A program made the translations under genes and the position numbers. 23,898 nt of DNA from a virus. This document shows, piece after piece, positions 87 to 22,801 of this stretch. Each line of letters starts with the position of its first letter. The first letter of the stretch is position 1. Under the pieces are notes generated by a model. It saw nothing but the letters and a program-made list of their open reading frames with translations. It had not been told where the DNA came from and searched no databases. Location of the stretch: positions 1-23,898 of IMG/VR virus record IMGVR_UViG_3300027747_003620. One strand, given 5' to 3'.

Positions 87-1109
87 TTAACCCATTACAT
101 TCAACAGCGTGCCAATCATGCTGTCGCTGGCTGCCAGAACTTTGGCATTGGCTTCGTACAGACGCTGACTCTGGAGCAATTTTATGGTTTCCTGATTGAT
201 GTCCACACCGTATGCGTCAGCATAGCGATTGGCAGCTTCGTGGTAGTCTTGGGTGGCGTATTCTTCATCCAATCTACCACGACTGGCCACTGACCCAATC
301 AAGGTCTTGAATGCTGAATATTGATTGCCAAAATCAATCACACCAGGTGTGTTGCCAATGGTGCCGGCCTGCACCTGAGTTTGGTCGACCCATTCTCCAT
401 TTGAAAACATTTCAGTACCACCTGCGGTGTTGATGTTGGTTTTCACAGCGTCAGTCACCACTGTGAACTTGGCCATGAGTGGTGGCATGATGGAATTCAT
501 CACTTCGGTATAACCACTGATGGTGCCGGTGAGATTGGCAATTCTCTGTTGAATCTTTTGCACTTCACCAGAATTGTCACTGGTGATGCCGTTCACAGCA
601 ATCTTGCTCAGTTGCTCTTTGAGGCCATCCAGTTCAATTTGGCTCAGTTCAACTTTGCCCTGAATGTCGTCCCGGATACCCTGGATGCTGTCTTGGGTTT
701 GGTTGATTGCTGAATTAAATGCTGTGCCTGCCGAATTGAAATTTTGCAGTCGCACTTGATCTTGTGGAAACTGTTGTAGATCTCGGGCAGCATTCACAAA
801 GTCACTGTAGGTCTGATCAATTCTGCTGTGACTCACAGCAAGATCCACAGACTCGGTCACTTCCCGAGCCGCTTGTGATCGGTACATTTCTGTAGAAGTC
901 ACGCTCAACTGACGATCCAGCCATGGCTGGTTCTGTGTGGCCACTGACACACGCACGCCAGTTGAGTTTGATCCCGCTGTCTCAACTGTGGCGTCCTGGC
1001 GCTTGTAATTGGGATTGTCAGCATTGGCAATGTTTTGACTTATGGTGTCAATCATGTGACGCTGTGCCATCAATCCACTGGCTGCAGTACTCATTGAGTT
1101 TGATATCAT
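87..1109 (-). CDS. flgK: Short FlgK-like flagellar hook-filament junction protein
   Basis: FlgK (HAP1) joins the flagellar hook to the filament outside the cell after export through the flagellar type III apparatus. The N-terminus carries the rod/hook/FlgK signature: a GL motif at residues 12-13, then NIANADNPNYKRQ at 26-38. The C-terminus has the matching coiled-coil pattern, with DINQETIKLLQSQRLYEANAKV ending about 20 residues before the stop, written here in part only. At 340 residues it is much shorter than typical FlgK (about 450 to 650), so the loss is in the middle, where the exposed domains normally lie, while both terminal assembly helices remain. The start matches the family start; no Shine-Dalgarno is visible and a hairpin lies just upstream. 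It is the last gene of the fliS-flagellin-flgK cassette. A FlgE or FlgG relative is less likely given the C-terminal pattern. Confidence 0.85.
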   Translation of the reverse strand: MISNSMSTAASGLMAQRHMIDTISQNIANADNPNYKRQDATVETAGSNSTGVRVSVATQNQPWLDRQLSVTSTEMYRSQAAREVTESVDLAVSHSRIDQTYSDFVNAARDLQQFPQDQVRLQNFNSAGTAFNSAINQTQDSIQGIRDDIQGKVELSQIELDGLKEQLSKIAVNGITSDNSGEVQKIQQRIANLTGTISGYTEVMNSIMPPLMAKFTVVTDAVKTNINTAGGTEMFSNGEWVDQTQVQAGTIGNTPGVIDFGNQYSAFKTLIGSVASRGRLDEEYATQDYHEAANRYADAYGVDINQETIKLLQSQRLYEANAKVLAASDSMIGTLLNVMG

Positions 1110-1118
1110 GTTGTTTTT

Positions 1119-1141
1119 AGCAGGGGTTATTGGCCCCTGCT
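1119..1141. repeat. Hairpin between flagellin and flgK genes
   Basis: Eight-base arms AGCAGGGG (1119-1126) and CCCCTGCT (1134-1141) with a seven-base loop fill most of the 41-base gap between the flagellin stop and the flgK start. On the coding strand it is followed by AAAAAC, not a U-run, so it is not a classical terminator. It may protect the flagellin mRNA end or reduce FlgK relative to flagellin, which fits the stoichiometry of many filament subunits to few junction proteins. That role is inference. Confidence 0.6.
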
Positions 1142-1150
1142 GTTCCTATG

Positions 1151-1972
1151 TTAGCGAATCAGACTAAGCAGGTACTGTGGGAATTGGTTGGTAATTCCCA
1201 GAGTCGAGCTCATCAACTGTTGCTTGCTCTGCAACATGGTCAACTGGCTGCTGAGTTCAGCAACATCAGCATCTTCAATCTTGGAAATGCTTTCGGCCAA
1301 GCTGTTTTTCATGGTCTTGGCATTGTCCAACATCTTGGAGAGACCGGTCATCATGGTACCAATTGTGCTTTGGTTGGTGCCCACGGTAGCCGATGCTGTG
1401 GTCAACGCTGTCATGGCAGCTTGAGAATTGGCCACATCTGTCAAGTCAATGGTAGCAGCATCCACGCCCAGAGTAGCAGCATCGCTAGACGCAGCAGTCA
1501 AGGTATAGGTGTCGCCGGAATTGATACCGCTTTGGATGTCCAAGTCAGCTGCCGACGCATCCAACAGGTTCTGACCAAACAGCGTGGCATTGTCTGCAGT
1601 GGTGTCCAACTGGGTTTGCAGTTCTTCAAAAGAACTCTGCAATGCATCACGCTGCTCTGTGCTCAAGAGATCGGAACTGGCTTGAGTGGCCAAGTCCATC
1701 ATTTGAGTCAGGATGTCTTGCTGTGTTTGCAAGGCACGGTCACTCACATCCAACAAGGAAATACCTGATGTGAGGTTTTTGCCCACAGCGGTAAGACTGC
1801 TTTGTTGAATCTTGAGATTTGACAAAATGCCCATGCCAGCAGGATCATCTGCAGCAGTGAGAATACGCTTGCCCGAACTGATCTGAGCCGAAACTTTTTG
1901 CAGCTGGGTGGCGTTGTCGTTTAGATTTCGTGCGATTGCACTGGAAAGGGTGTTTGAGTTTAAAGATAGCAT
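1151..1972 (-). CDS. fliC: Flagellin (filament subunit)
   Basis: This is a flagellin, the secreted subunit that polymerises into the flagellar filament. The N-terminal D0/D1 region is canonical: LSLNSNTLSSAIARNLN near the start and then SSGKRILTAADDPAGMGI around residues 32-49. The C-terminal region has SKIEDADVAELSSQL followed by an end in YLLSLIR, which matches the family ending in VLSLLR. The middle, about residues 130 to 190, is short and Ala/Thr/Asp-rich, so the exposed domain is small. At 273 residues it resembles compact proteobacterial flagellins. The ATG is preceded by a strong Shine-Dalgarno, AAAGGAG, eight bases upstream. The FliS-like chaperone gene lies just before it and a FlgK-like gene just after. 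Finding flagellin among phage replication and tail genes is unexpected; a prophage-host junction seems unlikely because the flanking genes all run the same way and the window has only phage genes upstream. Confidence 0.93.
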   Translation of the reverse strand: MLSLNSNTLSSAIARNLNDNATQLQKVSAQISSGKRILTAADDPAGMGILSNLKIQQSSLTAVGKNLTSGISLLDVSDRALQTQQDILTQMMDLATQASSDLLSTEQRDALQSSFEELQTQLDTTADNATLFGQNLLDASAADLDIQSGINSGDTYTLTAASSDAATLGVDAATIDLTDVANSQAAMTALTTASATVGTNQSTIGTMMTGLSKMLDNAKTMKNSLAESISKIEDADVAELSSQLTMLQSKQQLMSSTLGITNQFPQYLLSLIR

Positions 1973-2046
1973 CGAGGTTCTCCTTTAGTTTGCTATGGAA
2001 AACCACATACTTAAATGTTGGCGAGTTGTTACACTCTAGGTTATTC

Positions 2047-2060
2047 GTGCCCCAGGGCAC
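2047..2060. repeat. GC-rich hairpin in the flagellin leader
   Basis: Perfect arms GTGCCC (2047-2052) and GGGCAC (2055-2060) with a two-base centre lie eight bases after the fliS-like stop codon and about 75 bases before the flagellin start. No U-tract follows on the coding strand. It could be an operator, an RNA processing site or a weak barrier between fliS and flagellin. The 95-base gap it sits in is the longest between two genes in this window and is probably the flagellin leader. Confidence 0.45.
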
Positions 2061-2067
2061 AAATCTT

Positions 2068-2421
2068 TTACATCTTCAACAGGATATTTATGAAACTCAG
2101 TTCCTCTTGAAAATTTTCAGGTCTGCTGTGAATGGCCACAACTGACTTTCTAATCTTGGTCAGCAGCAAGTTGAAAAATCTCCGCAACACTGCCTGTTCT
2201 TCTGCACTCACAGCTTCATTGATGTTGCTGAGCACATACTCCAGCACTTCGCTCATGTTGTTGAGACTGGTCAATCTCACATCTTTTTTGGCCGTAGTGT
2301 CTTGGGCAATCATGAGATGCTTTTTGAGACCAATCAGCAGTTGTTGATTGGTGCCTTGAGCTGTCACATGTGTTTGGTAGCTTTGAGCACGATATGCAAG
2401 ATTCATAGGTGTAGTGTACAA
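2068..2421 (-). CDS. fliS: FliS-like flagellin export chaperone
   Basis: FliS binds the C-terminal disordered part of unfolded flagellin in the cytoplasm and delivers it for export. The product is 117 residues, mostly helical, as in FliS (about 120 to 135). The first ten residues read MYTTPMNLAY, matching the enterobacterial FliS pattern of MYT at the start and AY at positions 9-10; the start Met-Tyr is functionally important in that family. A hydrophobic helix (QQLLIGLKKHLMIAQ) and two later helices fit the four- to five-helix bundle. This reading requires a TTG start at 2421. An ATG at 2406 is the alternative, giving 112 residues. Neither has a Shine-Dalgarno. The position just before flagellin strengthens the call, which is otherwise based on weak similarity. 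Confidence 0.7.
   Translation of the reverse strand: MYTTPMNLAYRAQSYQTHVTAQGTNQQLLIGLKKHLMIAQDTTAKKDVRLTSLNNMSEVLEYVLSNINEAVSAEEQAVLRRFFNLLLTKIRKSVVAIHSRPENFQEELSFINILLKM
2085..2092 (-). promoter_or_regulatory. CATAAATA late-type box upstream of flagellin
   Basis: The gene strand reads CATAAATA inside the last codons of the fliS-like gene, about 112 bases before the flagellin start. It is one base from the T4 late promoter box TATAAATA. It could give flagellin late expression separate from fliS, with the GC hairpin in the leader. The distance is longer than for the other TAAATA boxes here, so chance is quite possible. Confidence 0.25.
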
Positions 2422-2441
2422 GAGTTGGAATAAAAAGTCAA
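2413..2441 (-). promoter_or_regulatory. Possible sigma-70-like promoter for fliS
   Basis: On the minus strand TTGACT (2441-2436) and TACACT (2418-2413) are 17 bases apart, in the gap between the 103-residue protein and fliS. The -10 is a weak match. Its end is six bases from the ATG at 2406, the same geometry as the stronger promoter at 3000-3029. It overlaps the TTG start favoured by FliS similarity, so promoter and TTG start cannot both serve the same transcript. Confidence 0.3.
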
Positions 2442-4811: not shown

Positions 4812-5101
4812 TATGCTGCCACTCTTACGTCAGAGCTACCACCGGCTCTGGCATGCCCACAGGTGTCCACACAACCGGTGTAGATCAAGGGGATACCATT
4901 GGCACGTACGGAGCTGCTGCCACCTGCGGTTTGAGCATGGCAGTGAATGGGCGGGCAACCACGCTGACCACAACAGGGATGCGGAGTCACAGCACTGCCC
5001 GCGACCATGGCAGGTCTGCCGTTTATTCGTACTGAAGCCTCGCCGCCTTGTGCGATCCCCCCAGCTGTGTTGGCATCGCCCTGACGCTGTGTGCTTGGCA
5101 C
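4811..5101 (-). CDS. PAAR-domain tail spike tip protein
   Basis: PAAR proteins form a sharp metal-binding cone at the tip of the central spike of contractile tails and help to pierce the outer membrane; T4 gp5.4 is the phage example. The 96-residue product has three Gly-rich repeats with VRxNGxP or VR at about residues 19-30, 60-71 and 88-93. Candidate zinc ligands are H41, C43, C44, C49, H53, C54, H55, C77, C81 and H83, which is more Cys-rich than usual. It starts at GTG (5101), four bases after the upstream stop, with GGGA about eight bases before. Its stop overlaps the start of the 583-residue gene. Length and repeat pattern fit the family well. Confidence 0.85.
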   Translation of the reverse strand: MPSTQRQGDANTAGGIAQGGEASVRINGRPAMVAGSAVTPHPCCGQRGCPPIHCHAQTAGGSSSVRANGIPLIYTGCVDTCGHARAGGSSDVRVAA

Positions 5102-5105
5102 CGAT

Positions 5106-5399
5106 TTATCCCATCAAAATCTTGCTGCTGACCGGACGAATTCCTGTGGTGGCTTCAATGTAACTGTCGCGCACTTCGGCACGAGTTGCAGCCACAATCG
5201 AGCAAGCTGATTTATTTAGCGAGTAGCTGCGCTCAGGATCTGCTGTGAACACGCTCAGGATCATTTGTATGCCCTGTGGGCCTGGCACCACTGTGAGTGG
5301 TTTTGTGATAGTGTAATCAGTGTCAGTTTCGGCAGTGACTTTGGCAACCATTTCGTCGCCGCTGATGAGTTTGATGGTGTAAATTTCGTCCAGTGTCAT
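5106..5399 (-). CDS. Small Lsm/Sm-like beta-barrel phage protein
   Basis: The 97-residue product begins with YTIKLISGDEMVAKVTAET and then YTITKPLTVVPGPQG, a strand-Gly-Asp/Glu-strand pattern like the Sm1 motif of Lsm/Hfq-type barrels. Proteins with this opening are, to my knowledge, frequent unnamed genes in T4-like phages of aquatic bacteria. RNA binding has not been shown for them as far as I know, so the fold is suggested and the function open. It starts at ATG with TAGGA about six bases before, two bases after the glutaredoxin stop. A GCTAAATA box at 5213-5220 lies inside the gene. Confidence 0.65.
   Translation of the reverse strand: MTLDEIYTIKLISGDEMVAKVTAETDTDYTITKPLTVVPGPQGIQMILSVFTADPERSYSLNKSACSIVAATRAEVRDSYIEATTGIRPVSSKILMG
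5213..5220 (-). promoter_or_regulatory. GCTAAATA box inside the Lsm-like gene
   Basis: The minus strand reads GCTAAATA, identical to the boxes before three structural-type genes elsewhere in the window. Here it is inside coding sequence, about 111 bases before the PAAR start. It may be an internal late promoter for the PAAR and 583-residue genes, but the distance is unlike the others and chance is likely. Confidence 0.2.
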
Positions 5400-5401
5400 G
5401 T

Positions 5402-5725
5402 TTATCCTAGGTGTTTCTTTAATTCCGTAAATCCGCCAATGTGAGCTTGGTCTAAAAAAATCTGTGGCAGGGTTCTGGCTGTGGGCACAGCCTCCAGCAG
5501 TTGCTCGCGTGTCCAGTCTTGATTGATGTTGCGTTCTTCAAATTCAATGCCCTTGAGTTGCAACAAGGCCTTGGCCTGCACACAAAACGGGCACGAGTCT
5601 TTGGACCATACTATGGCTTTCATTGTGTTTTCCTTTTTTCCAAATGTGCGTTCCCAGTTGCTAGCAAATGTGTCAGCATCAACACCAAAGGGTCTAGGGG
5701 AACTGCCTTTACCGCCGTCGCTCAT
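5402..5725 (-). CDS. Glutaredoxin with a 34-residue N-terminal extension
   Basis: Glutaredoxins reduce ribonucleotide reductase through a CxxC dithiol. The core begins at Met35 (KAIVWSKDSCPFC) with active site C45-P-F-C48, a TLPQIF cis-proline loop near residue 86 and GGFTEL near 97, all typical. The first 34 residues (KGSSPRPFGVDADTFASNW and then ERTFGKK) resemble a small free-standing phage protein I recall from other T4-like phages, joined here in frame. Both starts look usable: GGGAGAA precedes the ATG at 5725, and AAGGAAAA precedes the internal ATG at 5623. So one gene may give a fused 107-residue form and a 73-residue glutaredoxin. It lies 20 bases after NrdB, its likely partner. Confidence 0.85.
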   Translation of the reverse strand: MSDGGKGSSPRPFGVDADTFASNWERTFGKKENTMKAIVWSKDSCPFCVQAKALLQLKGIEFEERNINQDWTREQLLEAVPTARTLPQIFLDQAHIGGFTELKKHLG

Positions 5726-5745
5726 GATTTTTCTCCCAAAGCCAA

Positions 5746-6846
5746 TTATATAGCAGGAAGTGCATCATAGTCAAGACTATCGCTCATGATGCCGATCACA
5801 TAGTTGGTGCTTTCGGTTTCTTGCAAGGCAGCTTGTTTCTTGCTGGTGTTGGTGTGCTTGGTAAACCAGGGTATGGGAGTGGTCTTGGGCGCCGAGCCCG
5901 GATACTTGATGCCAATTTCTTTCAAGGCTGCAGCAGCAGTGTAGTCCATGAAGTCTTTGAGAATGGCAGCATTGAGGCCAATCACAGGACCTTTCTTGAA
6001 CAGATAGTCAGCCCAGGCCTTTTCTTCACGAATCACATCCTGATACATGGCCATGACTTCGGCTTCACATCTTGCACGAGCAGCAGCAAAGCGCGGATCT
6101 TCTTTGACCACTTGGTTGATGAGCCAGGCAGTCCAGTCGCGATGCAAGATTTCGTCCTGCAGGATCAAGCTGATGATGTTGCCATTGCCGATGAATATGC
6201 GATTTTCCACCATGGCCAAGCTGGTGGCAAACGAAACCATGAAGCGTAATGCTTCTAGTGCATAGCTGGCATTGAGTGCCAACCAAATGGCATCAATGTG
6301 CGTTTGTTCAGCTATCTCTGCACCAGTTTCGCGAGCACAGTTGATTTGATGCAGGCCATCATAGTATCGACCCACAGCAGCAGCCATGCCCACAATCTCT
6401 TGGGTGTCATGAATAGTGTTAAACACTTCCTTGGGCACATTGTAGATGTTGCGAATGATGTGACTGTAGCTGCGTGAGTGAATGTTGGTTTCAAAAAAAG
6501 TCCAGTTGTAGACCAAGGCTTCCAGTTCAGGCAAGCTGATCACTGGTGTGAATACCTGACTGGGTCCACGACCTTGCAAACTATCAAGTGCCGTTTGTCT
6601 CAACAGGTTGCTGGTAAAAATGTGTCGTACAGTTTCTGAAGCTTCCTTGAAGTCCGTGGCATCTTTGGTGAGACTGATCTCTTCTGGCACCCAGAAAAAG
6701 CCGCGAGCTTCCTGTTCAAACTTGACCAGTCGGTTGTATCGTACTTCTTCAAAGCGTTGAATGGTAACCGGACCAGCAGGGTCCAAGAACATTTTTCTAC
6801 CAAGATAGTTGGTGGGGACGGATAGGTTGTATTGTGCTTGACTCAT
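5746..6846 (-). CDS. nrdB: Ribonucleotide reductase class Ia small subunit (NrdB)
   Basis: NrdB carries the diiron centre and tyrosyl radical that drive reduction of ribonucleotides by NrdA. The 366-residue product has the expected residues: D65 in KDATDFK, E119 and H123 in FFETNIHSRSY, radical Tyr127, E198, and E232/H235 in DEILHRDW. The C-terminus has a tail ending in LDYDALPAI, which would dock into NrdA. The spacing between E119 and H123 is one residue longer than the usual ExxH. The ATG at 6846 is preceded by AAAGGAA; an upstream in-frame extension to 6894 would overlap the aldolase gene and is not favoured. It lies after the aldolase gene and before glutaredoxin. Confidence 0.95.
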   Translation of the reverse strand: MSQAQYNLSVPTNYLGRKMFLDPAGPVTIQRFEEVRYNRLVKFEQEARGFFWVPEEISLTKDATDFKEASETVRHIFTSNLLRQTALDSLQGRGPSQVFTPVISLPELEALVYNWTFFETNIHSRSYSHIIRNIYNVPKEVFNTIHDTQEIVGMAAAVGRYYDGLHQINCARETGAEIAEQTHIDAIWLALNASYALEALRFMVSFATSLAMVENRIFIGNGNIISLILQDEILHRDWTAWLINQVVKEDPRFAAARARCEAEVMAMYQDVIREEKAWADYLFKKGPVIGLNAAILKDFMDYTAAAALKEIGIKYPGSAPKTTPIPWFTKHTNTSKKQAALQETESTNYVIGIMSDSLDYDALPAI

Positions 6847-6860
6847 GCTATTCCTTTGTT

Positions 6861-7496
6861 TTAATAATTTTTTGATGCCAAAACAATCTTGCAAATGTGT
6901 TCGAGGCGTTCAATATGTTCGTAGGCTCGCCAGGGACTGGTGTCAATGGCCACAACTCCGTGACCTTTGATGCCCACTATGTCATAGGCAATGTTGCCTG
7001 CTGAGTCCAGTTGTAGATTCTCGTGGCAACGATCCGCCAGTTCTTGACTGATGGGAGGCACATCTGGTACATTGGCGGCCACTCGAGTGTAACGACTCAG
7101 TTCTGGAAAATCAGTTACCACGGTGCTGAGATCGATCCCGGCATGCATGGCTGCCACACAGTAGGTGGGGTGCACATGCACCACCACTCGAACTTCTCCG
7201 TTGTGCTGACCCATCTCTCGTTGCAGGCCAAAGTGCAAGGGAATTTCGCCACTGGGTTTCAAGCTGGCACTGATATCGGTGTAGGGCAACTCGATCCAGT
7301 TGTAACGATTGACCGGTTGCTTTAGTATGCCAATTTTTTTAAACTGATCGGGTTGTAGAGTCTGCTTGCGAACGCCACTGGGTGTGATGTAAAAATGATC
7401 ACGGTCGTGATGACGTATCGACACATTGCCATCACGGCTGGTTATCCAATTGCGCTTGTAAGCGTCTTCCAACACTTCACAGATGGTTTCTAACAT
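6861..7496 (-). CDS. Class II aldolase/adducin-family protein
   Basis: Members cleave or epimerise small sugar phosphates or dehydrate methylthioribulose phosphate using zinc. The 211-residue product keeps the fold markers: GNVSIR at 23-28, TPSG at 38-41, E84 in PSGEIPLH, zinc ligands H107 and H109 in HVHP, and H179 in KGHG. The length is normal for fuculose-1-phosphate aldolase, ribulose-5-phosphate epimerase and MtnB relatives, and substrate cannot be read from sequence. Its ATG overlaps the YHYH stop as TAATG, and its stop is 14 bases before nrdB, so it is expressed with the nucleotide-reduction genes. A link to pentose or nucleoside sugar salvage is possible but only inferred. Confidence 0.88.
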   Translation of the reverse strand: MLETICEVLEDAYKRNWITSRDGNVSIRHHDRDHFYITPSGVRKQTLQPDQFKKIGILKQPVNRYNWIELPYTDISASLKPSGEIPLHFGLQREMGQHNGEVRVVVHVHPTYCVAAMHAGIDLSTVVTDFPELSRYTRVAANVPDVPPISQELADRCHENLQLDSAGNIAYDIVGIKGHGVVAIDTSPWRAYEHIERLEHICKIVLASKNY

Positions 7497-8593
7497 TACT
7501 GGAATGACCCGATTGGTATTGCAATAATATTTGGAGTTCCGTGATCCTTATGGCTATGTGCCTTATGGCCATGTGCCTTGCCCGATGTCCCATGAATTTT
7601 GTTATGGGCCCTAAGGTCAGGTGATCCTAATGCTTTAGCATAGTCAACTTTACCTCTAAAGCAACCAATACTATATGGATATTCATTATTCAAGTGATAG
7701 TGATAGATGTTTTGAATTTTACCATCCCATAGCACTGGATGAGTGTGACCGTGGCATTCATCCAGTTGGGCATTGGTAACCATTTTGCCATCGTCGCCTC
7801 GAGGGCCATAGATGCCAAATCCATCAAACGCATAACCAAACAAGGGTGAATGTCCTTCTGTTCCTTGATTAGGGAAACACTTCCAGCTATAACCATGCAA
7901 GTGATATTGTTGAGCATAAGGATGACCCCAGCATTGGTCAATTGGTAGTAGTGAAGTTGGATTATACCATGCGGTACCACTAGCGTTTGCCAGTTCAAAA
8001 TGCCACACAGTACCAGTTAGTGTTACACCAATCGGTAATGAAGCAATTGGATTTGGAGTAGCACTAGGCTTTGGATATTTTGGTAATTGAACCGTTAAGT
8101 TATAAGGACTAATGCCAATGGCTGCGGCGCTGGAATAGTCTGAGCCAGGAATGCCTGTTCTGAAATCATGTCCACCGGGTGCAACACTATAATACTTGTA
8201 TGCTTCGGTTCCTTGTTGTACCGGATACTCTCCCATTGCTGTTGATGGTAATCCGTTACCCTTAAAATAACGATACTTTTTATCAGTAGTTACAGTGAAT
8301 ACACTGCCTTCTTTTGCATAGTCTTTGGCATACTTGGTACCACTAACATATGGCATCTTGGAAATAACAATTGTGTTGTTTGACGAATCCACCCAAGGTT
8401 GTGTGCTTATGTCAAGTTTTGTGTTTCCAGGAATTACAAGAAGTAAATCCGGTGCTAAGAATATTCCACCACGCTCGGCCTTGTAAGGGCTTATAGTTCC
8501 TGAGTTTGATAATGTTGTTGGTGCATCTTCTGCCATAACACTGCCGGCTAATACGATGCCAAGAATAGTTCCTACTAATATATTTTTAATCAT
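7496..8593 (-). CDS. Secreted YHYH-domain protein with His-rich tail
   Basis: The 365-residue product starts with a Sec signal peptide: Lys at position 3, a hydrophobic core to about residue 18, and likely cleavage after VMA at residue 21. The central part has FGYAFDGFGIYGPRG and then YHYH at 297-300, which identify the YHYH family, whose function is not established. After it comes a His/Lys-rich tail (several HGHK and HSHK units from about residue 330) that could bind metal. AAAGGAAAC precedes the ATG by about four bases. It is more AT-rich than its neighbours and sits between nrdA and an aldolase gene, which suggests later acquisition. A periplasmic or surface role in infected cells is possible. 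I cannot assign a reaction. Confidence 0.85.
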   Translation of the reverse strand: MIKNILVGTILGIVLAGSVMAEDAPTTLSNSGTISPYKAERGGIFLAPDLLLVIPGNTKLDISTQPWVDSSNNTIVISKMPYVSGTKYAKDYAKEGSVFTVTTDKKYRYFKGNGLPSTAMGEYPVQQGTEAYKYYSVAPGGHDFRTGIPGSDYSSAAAIGISPYNLTVQLPKYPKPSATPNPIASLPIGVTLTGTVWHFELANASGTAWYNPTSLLPIDQCWGHPYAQQYHLHGYSWKCFPNQGTEGHSPLFGYAFDGFGIYGPRGDDGKMVTNAQLDECHGHTHPVLWDGKIQNIYHYHLNNEYPYSIGCFRGKVDYAKALGSPDLRAHNKIHGTSGKAHGHKAHSHKDHGTPNIIAIPIGSFQ

Positions 8594-13676: not shown

Positions 13677-14018
13677 TTAAACTCTAAAACTGATACCACA
13701 ACCACATCGGTCGCGCTCATTGGGGTTGCGGAACTCAAAACCTTCATTCAGACCTTGACGCACATAGTCCACAGTCATGTTGGCCAACAAGGGTTCATTG
13801 CGCTTGTCCACCAACACACAAAATCCGGGTGTGTTGTGATCTCCGGGTTGAGCATAGTTGATAGTGGTTTCGTCATATTCATAACGATCTACATATTCTA
13901 ACACATAAGCTAGCCCTGAGCAACCGGTGGTTTTGACACCTAGTCTGATGCCAGCACCGCCACGTTGTGCCAGGAGTTTTTTTACTTTACGCTGTGCTGC
14001 GTCAGTCAGTTTTATCAT
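13677..14018 (-). CDS. iscA: IscA-like A-type Fe-S carrier
   Basis: A-type carriers accept iron-sulfur clusters from the scaffold and hand them to target proteins. The 113-residue product has the three ligand cysteines C33 (GCSGL), C105 and C107 (CGCG), in the standard order, and the family opening MIKLTDAAQRKVKKLL. It is slightly longer than typical IscA (about 107), through an insert around AQPGDHNTPGF. The start at 14018 fits the family; it overlaps the end of iscU by 17 bases, so the two are coupled. An upstream start at 14057 would only add residues overlapping iscU. IscA, SufA and ErpA cannot be told apart with confidence from this alone. Confidence 0.92.
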   Translation of the reverse strand: MIKLTDAAQRKVKKLLAQRGGAGIRLGVKTTGCSGLAYVLEYVDRYEYDETTINYAQPGDHNTPGFCVLVDKRNEPLLANMTVDYVRQGLNEGFEFRNPNERDRCGCGISFRV

Positions 14019-14391
14019 GTTTGGCTCGGTAGTCGGCGATTGCAGCCCGGATGGCATCCTCGGCCAAAATGCTGCAATGTATTTTTACAGGAGGGAGTGC
14101 AAGCTCTTGTGCGATCTCGCTGTTTTTGATATTTTGAGCAGCATCAATGTGCATGCCCTTGACCATTTCCGTAACCAAACTTGAGCTGGCAATGGCCGAA
14201 CCGCAGCCATATGTCTTGAAACGAGCATCTCTAATAACACCATGTTCATCTACCTTGATTTGCAATTTCATCACGTCACCGCATGCCGGTGCTCCCACCA
14301 TGCCTGTGCCTACACCTGCTTCGTCCTTGCCGAAACTGCCCACATTGCGGGGATTTTCGTAGTGATCAACAACTTTGTCTGAATATGCCAT
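14002..14391 (-). CDS. iscU: IscU iron-sulfur cluster scaffold protein
   Basis: IscU is the scaffold on which IscS sulfur and iron are built into a 2Fe-2S cluster in the cytoplasm. The 129-residue product is close to E. coli IscU along its length: opening MAYSDKVVDHYENPRNVG, cluster residues C37, D39, C63, H105 and C106, and the HscA-binding motif LPPVK at 99-103. All functional residues are present. AGGGAT lies seven bases before the ATG, and a near-consensus promoter with a dyad lies just upstream. No iscS, hscBA or fdx gene is nearby, so it must use host partners. Its similarity to bacterial IscU suggests transfer from a host. IscA follows. Confidence 0.97.
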   Translation of the reverse strand: MAYSDKVVDHYENPRNVGSFGKDEAGVGTGMVGAPACGDVMKLQIKVDEHGVIRDARFKTYGCGSAIASSSLVTEMVKGMHIDAAQNIKNSEIAQELALPPVKIHCSILAEDAIRAAIADYRAKHDKTD

Positions 14392-20351: not shown

Positions 20352-21356
20352 TTATTTACCACAAACATCATCGCAAATAACTAGTCTACCTTGTTCATAA
20401 CGGTCAACAGACCAAGACTGTTCAACAGAGTTAAACCACTCAATACATTCTTCTAAGGTATATTCCAGTGCATTATTTTTTGATAACAGCGGAATTAATT
20501 GTGCATTAGCAGCTTGATGATAATAGCCAGCGCCATATGTTTTGGGATAAAATCCTGTCCAACAGCACGGACTTACATCACCTGTGGCACTTATGTATAT
20601 GCTTTTTAAAGTCTTGGTTTTACAAAATATATGTTTTTTTGGTTGTCGATCAATAATAATATCTTCAAGCAATACTTCATCTGTTTTCCTTTTATGAAAT
20701 AGCACTTTGAAATCCTGTTCTCCGGTATAATTGCCCAACACATGAGTCAAATTACCCTGTCGATCAAATACTGGGGCAGTATTTCGACCATCATTAACTA
20801 GCTCAAAATCAACAAATCCAAGAGTTTTACTCAATTTTTGACATTGTTCAATTTGGTGACGGTTGTGATCAAATTCGATCATTTTCCAAACAGCTCTACC
20901 TCCGGCTGCAATAAATGTTTGAGCATTGCGAATCACTGTGGACCACACTGTGTTTTGTCTATACAAGTGATGAGTATCTTCTAATCCGTCGATACAAAAC
21001 AAAACTGTAACAGGAGTTTGCGCCAACTGAGTCCAAAATTTGCTGTCCCTGGCGCCACCGTTGGTGCTGACAGAAATATTTAAAGCAGGATTCACATTAA
21101 AAAAGTATTCAACAATGTCAGGTCCTTCTGGATTCATCACTATGTCCCCAAAATTTCCATTGATTCGAATTCTAGTCAGCTGATTCAAAAAATCCGGCTG
21201 AAATATTTTTTTGGCATTATCAAGAAAAAGATTTACCTCAGGATATCCTCCATTGAACGGATATCCCCAAAATGTTCTAGGGCACCAAGGACAGCTGGCA
21301 TTACAAATACTGGAAATTTCCAGATGAACATCTCGAATTTCATGAAATTTTATCAT
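20352..21356 (-). CDS. Radical SAM protein, AT-rich, unknown substrate
   Basis: Radical SAM enzymes use a 4Fe-4S cluster and S-adenosylmethionine to start radical reactions. The 334-residue product has the CxxxCxxC motif at C18, C22 and C25 (ICNASCPWCPR), a glycine-rich strand, and later cysteines in SATGDVSPCCWTGF and at the C-terminus (CDDVCGK), suggesting a SPASM or Twitch-type extension with extra cluster binding. Such enzymes often modify peptides or other cofactors, but the substrate here is unknown. The ATG overlaps the helicase stop as ATGA; an upstream extension to 21461 lies inside the helicase gene and is rejected. Base composition is visibly more AT-rich than both neighbours, a sign of separate origin. 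Phage IscU-IscA might help to supply its clusters. Confidence 0.88.
   Translation of the reverse strand: MIKFHEIRDVHLEISSICNASCPWCPRTFWGYPFNGGYPEVNLFLDNAKKIFQPDFLNQLTRIRINGNFGDIVMNPEGPDIVEYFFNVNPALNISVSTNGGARDSKFWTQLAQTPVTVLFCIDGLEDTHHLYRQNTVWSTVIRNAQTFIAAGGRAVWKMIEFDHNRHQIEQCQKLSKTLGFVDFELVNDGRNTAPVFDRQGNLTHVLGNYTGEQDFKVLFHKRKTDEVLLEDIIIDRQPKKHIFCKTKTLKSIYISATGDVSPCCWTGFYPKTYGAGYYHQAANAQLIPLLSKNNALEYTLEECIEWFNSVEQSWSVDRYEQGRLVICDDVCGK
20353..20360 (-). promoter_or_regulatory. GGTAAATA late-type promoter after the radical SAM gene
   Basis: The minus strand reads GGTAAATA, 20 bases before the ATG at 20332. It contains part of the radical SAM stop codon, so coding constraint (Gly-Lys-stop) could explain it. 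The ten-base GGTAAATAAG is the same as before the 128-residue gene. It would drive the 82-, 277- and 646-residue genes. Confidence 0.4.
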
Positions 21357-22801
21357 GATTGTTTTATCTGTCCCAGTAATTGTTTGAGCTTGGCGCTCTG
21401 CACATCTGCAGACACCTTGGCTGGCTGTTCCCAGGCTGGAGTTCCTACAGCCCGTTCCCACGATGGTGTAGAAGCAGTATCACTGTCGTTGTTGGTGGCA
21501 GAAACTGTAGTTCTGGTTTTGATGGAATCCAAGATGTTGCTTTTTTTCACAAAGCCCGAACTCTGTTGTTCATCTTCGGCCAAGTCTGTGATACGCATGG
21601 TTTCAATGTTGTATTCTAGATCAATCTTTTGACCCACACCTGTGCTGGATCGCGATTTCATGCACTGAATTTGATAACGCCCACGCTCGCGCATGGCTCT
21701 GCTGGTAAAGATACCAAACACGTTGTCTGCGGTGTTAATCTTGGAGATACCACCCGAAATATGCGAGTGATCAAATTCCACTTCTTCCACAGCTGATCTA
21801 TTCAACTGACTTGCTGTCACAAACAACACATTGAGTTCTCGTGCTAGATTACGCAATTCCTCACTCACATACTTGTCTTTCACAAACAGGTCATTGGGCG
21901 ACACCTTGGCCGAAACTGGCATCAACAAGTCCAGGTAGTCTACCATGACAAAATCAACGCCAATACCGGTTTGTATCTGCACTTCTTTGATGTAGCTGCG
22001 TATGTCGTTCACTGTGCTCTGTGCAGGCAGAGCCTTGACTCGGTACTGTCCTGACTTCTTGGCCATCATGCGCACCTTGAGTTCAGCAGTTTCGATATCC
22101 TTTCGAATATCCTTGGTGCTCATGTTGGCCAGCATGGCATCAGTTCTCAAGGCACACAGTTCTTCGCTGAGTTCTAAACTGATGTACACACCACTCAAGC
22201 CAGTTTGCAGCCAATTTAGTGCCATGTTCATCATGACCAAGCTCTTGCCCGATCCTGACCCACCAGCAAAGATATTGAGTTCACCACGTGAGAACCCACC
22301 GTACAGCAACTTGTCCATGCTGCTCCAACCTGTGCTGACCTGTCCACCAGTGTTGAAATATCTGTTGATACGCTCAGAGGGATTTTCAAAATAGTCAGTG
22401 CCCATGTCTTTGGTCAAGCTGATCTGCACAGCGTCCTTGATCAGCTTTTCCACAGGATCATAGTCGCCTTTTTCCAGCAAGTCAGCACTTTTGAGAATGG
22501 CTCGTTCCAGTTCTTGACGTCTAGTAAACTTTTCAAATTCTGCCATGAACCACTCAAAGTGGCCTTCGTTCAAATCCGGCACTCGACTCAGCTGTATTCC
22601 TGTGGCAGCTGAAATCACTTCCACTGTGGGCAGGGTCTTGTGGTCCTGGCTGTGTTGTTGGATAAATTCAGCCACAGGACGCAGCTTGCGATCAAAGTTT
22701 TCGGGATTGTAGATGTTCTGCACACGCACATAGCTGCCGGCATCTTCCAACATCATTTCCAGAAAAATTTTCTGAACATCAACTGAGTAATCTTTTAGCA
22801 A
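21353..22801 (-). CDS. DnaB-type replicative helicase (T4 gp41-like)
   Basis: This is the replicative helicase that unwinds the phage fork as a hexamer, paired with the primase. The 482-residue product has the helicase-family N-terminal helical domain, a Walker A motif GGSGSGKS at 180-187, a Walker B-like VDFVMVDYLDLL at 282-293, and a Gln sensor segment around FVTASQLNRSA, followed by GGISKINTADN. The C-terminal 60 or so residues are polar and likely disordered. The start is TTG at 22801 with AAGGAAG five bases before; it overlaps the primase gene by 23 bases. The length and the primase neighbour fit T4 gp41 (475 residues). Confidence 0.95.
   Translation of the reverse strand: MLKDYSVDVQKIFLEMMLEDAGSYVRVQNIYNPENFDRKLRPVAEFIQQHSQDHKTLPTVEVISAATGIQLSRVPDLNEGHFEWFMAEFEKFTRRQELERAILKSADLLEKGDYDPVEKLIKDAVQISLTKDMGTDYFENPSERINRYFNTGGQVSTGWSSMDKLLYGGFSRGELNIFAGGSGSGKSLVMMNMALNWLQTGLSGVYISLELSEELCALRTDAMLANMSTKDIRKDIETAELKVRMMAKKSGQYRVKALPAQSTVNDIRSYIKEVQIQTGIGVDFVMVDYLDLLMPVSAKVSPNDLFVKDKYVSEELRNLARELNVLFVTASQLNRSAVEEVEFDHSHISGGISKINTADNVFGIFTSRAMRERGRYQIQCMKSRSSTGVGQKIDLEYNIETMRITDLAEDEQQSSGFVKKSNILDSIKTRTTVSATNNDSDTASTPSWERAVGTPAWEQPAKVSADVQSAKLKQLLGQIKQS

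Follow-up and report, generated by a model that had tools for sequence, protein, structure and literature searches.

The locus and its surroundings

The window discussed here is the whole of one IMG/VR virus record, 23,898 bases long, that is, a fragment of a genome. At one end it carries a cassette of three co-directional genes (87-2406, minus strand). In the order in which they are read, these encode a FliS-like four-helix protein of 112 amino acids (aa), probably a flagellin export chaperone (2068-2406, minus strand); a flagellin of 273 aa (1151-1972, minus strand); and a short FlgK-like hook-filament junction protein of 340 aa (87-1109, minus strand). The flagellin gene has a structured mRNA leader (1970-2040, minus strand). 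An earlier, sequence-only reading had the coordinates, strand, order, and shared direction of the three genes right (87-1109, 1151-1972, and 2068-2421, all minus); for the chaperone gene, its TTG start at 2421 is possible, and the conserved ATG at 2406 is likelier.

Upstream of the chaperone gene lies a sigma-70-like promoter candidate (TTGACT-17-TACACT, 9/12; 2413-2441, minus strand), and a sequence resembling it is also found in two related contigs described below, L002 and L003. The candidate must be regarded as weak because such sites number near chance expectation. A pattern scan for a sigma-28 promoter was negative.

The contig is that of a virus. Nearly all of its genes lie on the minus strand, and they encode a gp41-like helicase, a gp61-like primase, NrdA, NrdB, a PAAR protein, and a tail spike, together with a glutaredoxin and an exonuclease; the earlier description speaks of a T4-like phage genome. 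For the helicase the best-matching phages are jumbo phages of the PA5oct type (49%), and for NrdA it is Xanthomonas phage X1 (59%). The nearest phage relatives of these two proteins infect Xanthomonas, Stenotrophomonas, and Pseudomonas, which may be taken as a clue to the host, although only as a hint.

The three proteins

Judged by its sequence, the product of the middle gene is a bona fide flagellin, and it is predicted to polymerize. Both helical ends are well above their Pfam cut-offs, the N-terminal region (PF00669) at 6e-26 (91.6 bits against 26.6) and the C-terminal region (PF00700) at 1.5e-11 (44.9 bits against 23). The 273 aa form a D0/D1 core without an outer domain. The C terminus, which is the part of flagellin that FliS binds in known systems, is near-invariant among the phage proteins.

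FlgK starts the filament on the hook. The phage protein retains the N-terminal rod helix, beta hairpin, D1 helices, and C-terminal helix and is without the outer D2/D3 domains, so to speak a trimmed junction protein: bacterial junction-protein frames matched by its profile run to about 450-870 aa. Flg_bb_rod at the N end and Flg_bbr_C at the C end are over the Pfam cut-off both here and in the homologue from contig L086, and the claim that flagellin and FlgK keep their N- and C-terminal regions is correct for both proteins. The best of all NCBIfam models is flgK_ends (TIGR02492), with 107.8 bits (8e-31) for the window protein and 89 bits as the second score, yet both fall under the equivalog cut-off of 170.75 because the middle is missing; we therefore use the name “FlgK-like.” In an AF2 model of moderate confidence (63), the best six Foldseek matches are FlgK from solved hook-filament junctions (best E value 3e-4).

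The first protein is harder to name. It has no FliS match in Pfam (PF02561) or NCBIfam, its profile-profile comparison with FliS was negative (hhalign probability <6%), and a search of PDB sequences with its profile returned chance matches only. Its predicted fold, however, points to FliS: AF2 gave a model with pLDDT 84.5, for which FliS fills the top eight PDB rows (Z 15.1-11.5; the first unrelated chain scores 11.1), and its gene lies upstream of flagellin in 6/6 contigs. By sequence, the protein appears to lean weakly to FlaF, the alphaproteobacterial flagellin-coupling protein. The FlaF profile (PF07309) reaches the homologue from contig L005 at E 0.093, below the cut-off, and hhalign gives FlaF an E value of 8.5e-4 when this homologue is part of the profile, a score equaled by 0/150 column-shuffled decoys (7/150 for FliS); the signal is gone when L005, the most divergent homologue, is left out. 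FlbT had no match in the six contigs. Given a FliS fold, no FliS sequence match, and a weak FlaF lean, we call the protein FliS-like by fold and file it in neither family; fold and position beside flagellin make an export chaperone the probable function. Of the families named in the sequence-only reading, profile searches thus place flagellin over the cut-off and FlgK by its end domains but not at the equivalog level, and the FliS label has fold and position on its side but no profile.

Recurrence across viral contigs

The module is rare: pattern-limited searches found it in six IMG/VR contigs, the window and five more (L002, L003, L086, L004, and L005). The gene order is chaperone-flagellin-FlgK in the window, L002, L003, and L086, and chaperone-flagellin-FlaG in L004 and L005; the trio first described therefore recurs, but with FlaG in place of FlgK in one group. 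L002 and L003 are close relatives of the window and have NrdB, glutaredoxin, and PAAR on one side of the cassette. L003 also has phage genes, among them a DNA ligase, on the opposite side, and in L002, too, there is phage DNA beyond the cassette. The 45.9 kb contig L086, which has PhoH, carries a chaperone, flagellin, and FlgK-like protein that are 56%, 74%, and 45% identical to those of the window, the last being exactly 340 aa too.

In L004 (104 kb, with rIIA, DNA ligase, and ribonucleotide reductase) the chaperone and flagellin genes are followed by a FlaG-like gene, and FlgK had no match anywhere on the contig. L005 has a T4 RNase H-type exonuclease and a dCMP deaminase. The FlaG profile (PF03646) gives 26.0 bits in L005 against a cut-off of 23.8, and a weak 16.6 in L004. 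A core block runs colinear in the L004 phage and the window at 26-53% identity, whereas their flagellins are 73% identical and placed elsewhere relative to it. The module has therefore moved relative to the core genes, and either flagellin is under unusual constraint or these phages exchange it.

The phage contigs searched yielded no hook gene and no convincing cap gene. These phages must therefore rely on the organelle of the host, as the sequence-only reading had supposed for the basal body. A FliD_N match in L002 is below the cut-off, falls in an Ala/Gly-rich, PA14-domain protein of 707 aa, and was rejected as a cap. The gene for this protein (L002 1066-3189) lies between a small gene and NrdB and is missing from the window, which makes this a variable insertion site.

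Wider flagellin scans of IMG/VR yielded L086 in one case and nothing new in the last, and the plasmids searched held no match to the module. Among 50,697 annotated phage records there are no relatives, save what appear to be bacterial contigs under a wrong label and a Bacillus flagellin that stands alone and is unrelated. Two flagellin matches in INPHARED (L014 and L015; MT835518 and MT835713, human gut “Bacteriophage sp.”) were rejected; they show flagellin-FliS and tad-type bacterial neighborhoods and so are probably mislabelled records. Short Listeria and Salmonella “phage” records were also among these matches.

A tree with 70 bacterial flagellins places the five distinct phage sequences in a single clade (SH-aLRT 100), which answers the earlier question of whether phage copies group together; the clade sits on a long branch, and the tree does not fix its place among bacteria. 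Phage flagellins are 50-96% identical to each other, and the best segments of the bacterial flagellins examined are ≤38% identical to them, one very short stretch excepted. All three cassette genes are under purifying selection (dN/dS 0-0.21 among the window, L002, and L003; 0.15 for NrdB), conservation within the module is highest for flagellin, and the GC content of the cassette tracks that of each phage.

These results bear directly on whether we are simply looking at host DNA, that is, bacterial flagellar genes newly captured or mis-assembled and without function in the phage. The cassette does sit at the end of the window contig, and bacterial flagellar loci often hold fliC, flaG, fliD, and fliS together. 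However, five other viral contigs, from other metagenomes, share the cassette, with phage genes around it in the two close relatives, and the phage clade, the selection, and the phage-like GC argue strongly against a chimera or a recent capture of junk. We consider this explanation largely refuted and highly improbable; the contig is not a chimera.

A structured flagellin leader

The 95-base flagellin leader contains three hairpins, the first two with conserved loops. Hairpin 1 (2036-2023) has the loop UGUAAYAA, hairpin 2 (2018-2005) the loop UUUAAnUA, and hairpin 3 (2004-1976) pairs with the Shine-Dalgarno sequence AAGGAG. The fold beats nearly all shuffles in the window, L003, L004, and L086 (z -3.1 to -5.1). 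Across the three helices 97.6% of cells pair, and 6/14 pairs are changed on both sides (among 3 distinct sequences), a covariation that vanishes if the pairing partner is slid by one base.

The leader is also exclusive. When a covariance model (R1) was run on 224 kb of these phages, the confident sites were flagellin leaders only, and it found none in 41 bacterial flagellin loci. A search of 185 genomes, which had no positive control, was likewise empty, and no Rfam family matched. The pattern scan of IMG/VR with the leader loops returned 14 contigs, only four of which, all already known, have the pattern before flagellin. A leader-like site in L142 was rejected, being weak (20.8 bits) and before a non-flagellin gene. 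L005 is without the leader because its chaperone and flagellin genes are only 4 bases apart. Occlusion of a Shine-Dalgarno sequence is by itself not rare among the genes of the window phage, so the weight rests on the covariation and the exclusivity. The leader is apparently a new regulatory RNA element, and it would act on translation.

Two further hairpins deserve mention. One lies upstream of the three (GTGCCC...GGGCAC, 2043-2064, minus strand) and has a counterpart of different sequence in L004 and none in L086. The other, between flagellin and flgK (1119-1141, minus strand; AGCAGGGG-loop-CCCCTGCT), is strong and without a T run; a strong hairpin is found between flagellin and the third gene in L086 and L004 as well, with a different sequence each time.

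Just before the leader of L086 there is a T4-type late promoter motif (TATAAATA), which we rejected as a promoter since about two are expected by chance in this AT-rich locus and it is not above chance there. Taken at face value, the motif would suit a virion or extracellular role, in which flagellin and the FlgK-like protein build a part of the particle or a fiber and the FliS-like protein is the assembly chaperone; flagellin and tail proteins are, after all, both helical self-assemblers. On the other hand, the FlgK-like and FlaG partners and the FliS-like fold are all elements of flagellar export and assembly, and the annotated phage records hold no relatives beyond the exceptions given above. 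Such a role is possible but poorly supported, and we think it very unlikely.

What the cassette may do

The reading that we favor, and consider probable, is that the cassette serves a phage-owned substitution of the filament, in which a filament subunit, its escort, and a factor for the junction or for length would all be phage products destined for the hooks of the host. FliS in known systems carries flagellin to FlhA, where competition by FlaG limits filament length; this contest between FlaG and FliS sets the length in Campylobacter (PMC12445086). It follows that the FlgK and FlaG variants of the module both supply parts of the same export and assembly step, and the known roles of FliS, FlaG, and FlgK suggest that these phages supply flagellin, an escort, and one initiation-or-length protein.

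During infection, then, the phage would make its minimal D0/D1 flagellin, and the four-helix chaperone would keep it unpolymerized and bring it to the host export gate, FlhA. The third factor, a trimmed FlgK in one set of phages and a FlaG-type protein in the other, would act on filament initiation or length. Export and polymerization would proceed through the basal body, hook, FlgL, and FliD of the host. FlgL sits between FlgK and flagellin, and since neither it nor FliD appears to be supplied by the phage, the phage versions of FlgK and flagellin have to be compatible with partners from the host. Where host flagella grow further, the new part would then contain phage flagellin, leaving infected cells with a phage-type filament. 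Flagellin output may be set post-transcriptionally, with the leader keeping the ribosome-binding site covered until some factor exposes it, and the hairpin after the flagellin stop may help flagellin to outnumber the third protein. The most likely benefit would be a changed filament surface that deprives flagellotropic competitors of their receptor and lets the cell go on swimming, although sequence does not separate the three roles named in the sequence-only reading (blocking such competitors, altering surface antigen or motility, and keeping the cell swimming).

The main rival is sabotage of motility. Here the trimmed FlgK or FlaG, with the chaperone-flagellin pair, would block hooks and the export gate, and without a working filament the infected cell would no longer swim or no longer grow filaments, which would save energy or deny the cell to flagellotropic phages. 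A FlgK-like protein without outer domains would suit a blocker, FlaG is a known brake on the delivery of FliS-flagellin at FlhA (PMC12445086), and no FliD is supplied. However, the flagellin has both terminal domains intact, is strongly selected, and is better conserved than the other genes of the module; a pure blocker would need neither a full-length flagellin nor a dedicated structured leader. We regard sabotage as unlikely.

Filament substitution, the preferred reading, also admits a more specific version, which we consider unlikely: the module would be a self-contained filament program in which the chaperone-like protein, when free of flagellin, controls the leader, so that flagellin is translated only while the host gate accepts it, and a virulent phage could re-dress the flagella and go on driving them during infection. 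If true, this would be a new RNA element together with a new kind of host takeover, one that is directed at the surface of an organelle and not at metabolism.

Comparison with known systems

The closest precedent is the TldR-associated prophage flagellin FliC_P of Enterobacter phage FRphi, described as the first known prophage-encoded flagellin, which imaging showed to replace the host flagellin on host flagella after infection (PMC13418256). In both cases the flagellin is encoded by a phage; replacement of the filament was imaged for FRphi, and here we infer it from the genes. FRphi, a temperate siphophage of the lambda-like kind, has one flagellin gene, and next to it an RNA-guided repressor of host fliC is encoded, whereas the present phages are large and T4-like and add a FliS-like protein, either a FlgK-like protein or FlaG, and a structured leader. 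No TnpB-like Pfam match, as expected of a TldR-like repressor, was found among the main open reading frames (ORFs) of the window and the scanned downstream ORFs of L003.

FliC_P boosts motility and alters immune recognition in lysogens (PMC13418256), and it is fair to ask whether the present cassette likewise serves lysogenic or pseudolysogenic conversion, that is, long-term carriage with gains in motility or in escape from immunity and predators, and not the lytic cycle. Against this, the genes present are those of virulent phages of the T4-like kind (gp41/gp61, Nrd genes, and rIIA in L004), and no integrase was seen among the genes scanned, the contigs being fragments. We rate conversion as decidedly unlikely.

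The statement in the sequence-only reading that no characterized phage deploys this trio stands within our searches, which found no paper describing chaperone, flagellin, and FlgK together in a phage (open-access literature), but must be read beside FliC_P, a prophage flagellin with a known function. The trio is apparently phage-encoded flagellar remodeling in a new form, with a new RNA leader. Phage flagellin as so far described means a single gene, temperate phages, and an RNA-guided repressor; a conserved module with a regulatory RNA in T4-like phages implies that control of the host filament is also worthwhile during lytic infection. Whether phages change the receptor surface or the swimming of the very cell that they are killing becomes testable, and the module offers a small, separable system for asking which parts filament exchange needs.

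Compared with bacterial fliC-flaG-fliD-fliS loci, the cassette is similar in having chaperone, flagellin, and FlaG as neighbors and partners of one export step. It differs in that no cap gene was found, the chaperone comes first, the proteins are far diverged, and FlgK occupies the place of FlaG in one phage group. Small proteins are known to couple flagellin synthesis to assembly: FlbT and FlaF control flagellin translation in Caulobacter, and CsrA and FliW act on the flagellin leaders of Bacillus and Campylobacter (PMC3930126, PMC8306008). The phage system resembles these in the use of a flagellin mRNA leader, through which translation would be controlled, but its leader has three covarying hairpins and no match in the bacterial flagellin loci tested.

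A lone flagellin of 301 aa is encoded at 5001-5906 of Bacillus phage EZ-2018a (CP027117.1, L174; 118 kb), beside a Rap-like gene. This, too, is an annotated phage record; the flagellin is 28% identical to that of L005 and, unlike the cassette, has no FliS-, FlgK-, or FlaG-like neighbor within the few kb read.

Other genes of the window

Several genes outside the cassette are worth recording. At 13677-14391 (minus strand), an IscU gene, which passes the NCBIfam equivalog cut-off with 217.8 bits, adjoins a gene for an IscA/SufA-family protein, so that a T4-like phage carries a pair of genes for Fe-S cluster assembly. Between NrdB and the gene that follows lies a class II aldolase-type gene (6861-7496, minus strand; Pfam Aldolase_II, 2e-29), of a kind uncommon in phages. 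Its neighbor (7496-8593, minus strand) encodes a protein of 365 aa with an N-terminal signal-like segment, a YHYH domain over the Pfam cut-off, and a His-rich C terminus; with a GC3 of 0.30 against about 0.5 in neighboring genes, it was probably acquired recently. A radical-SAM-like protein (20352-21371, minus strand; PHROG radical SAM) is encoded by a gene whose GC3 of 0.27 is far below that of its surroundings, which makes it another likely recent acquisition.
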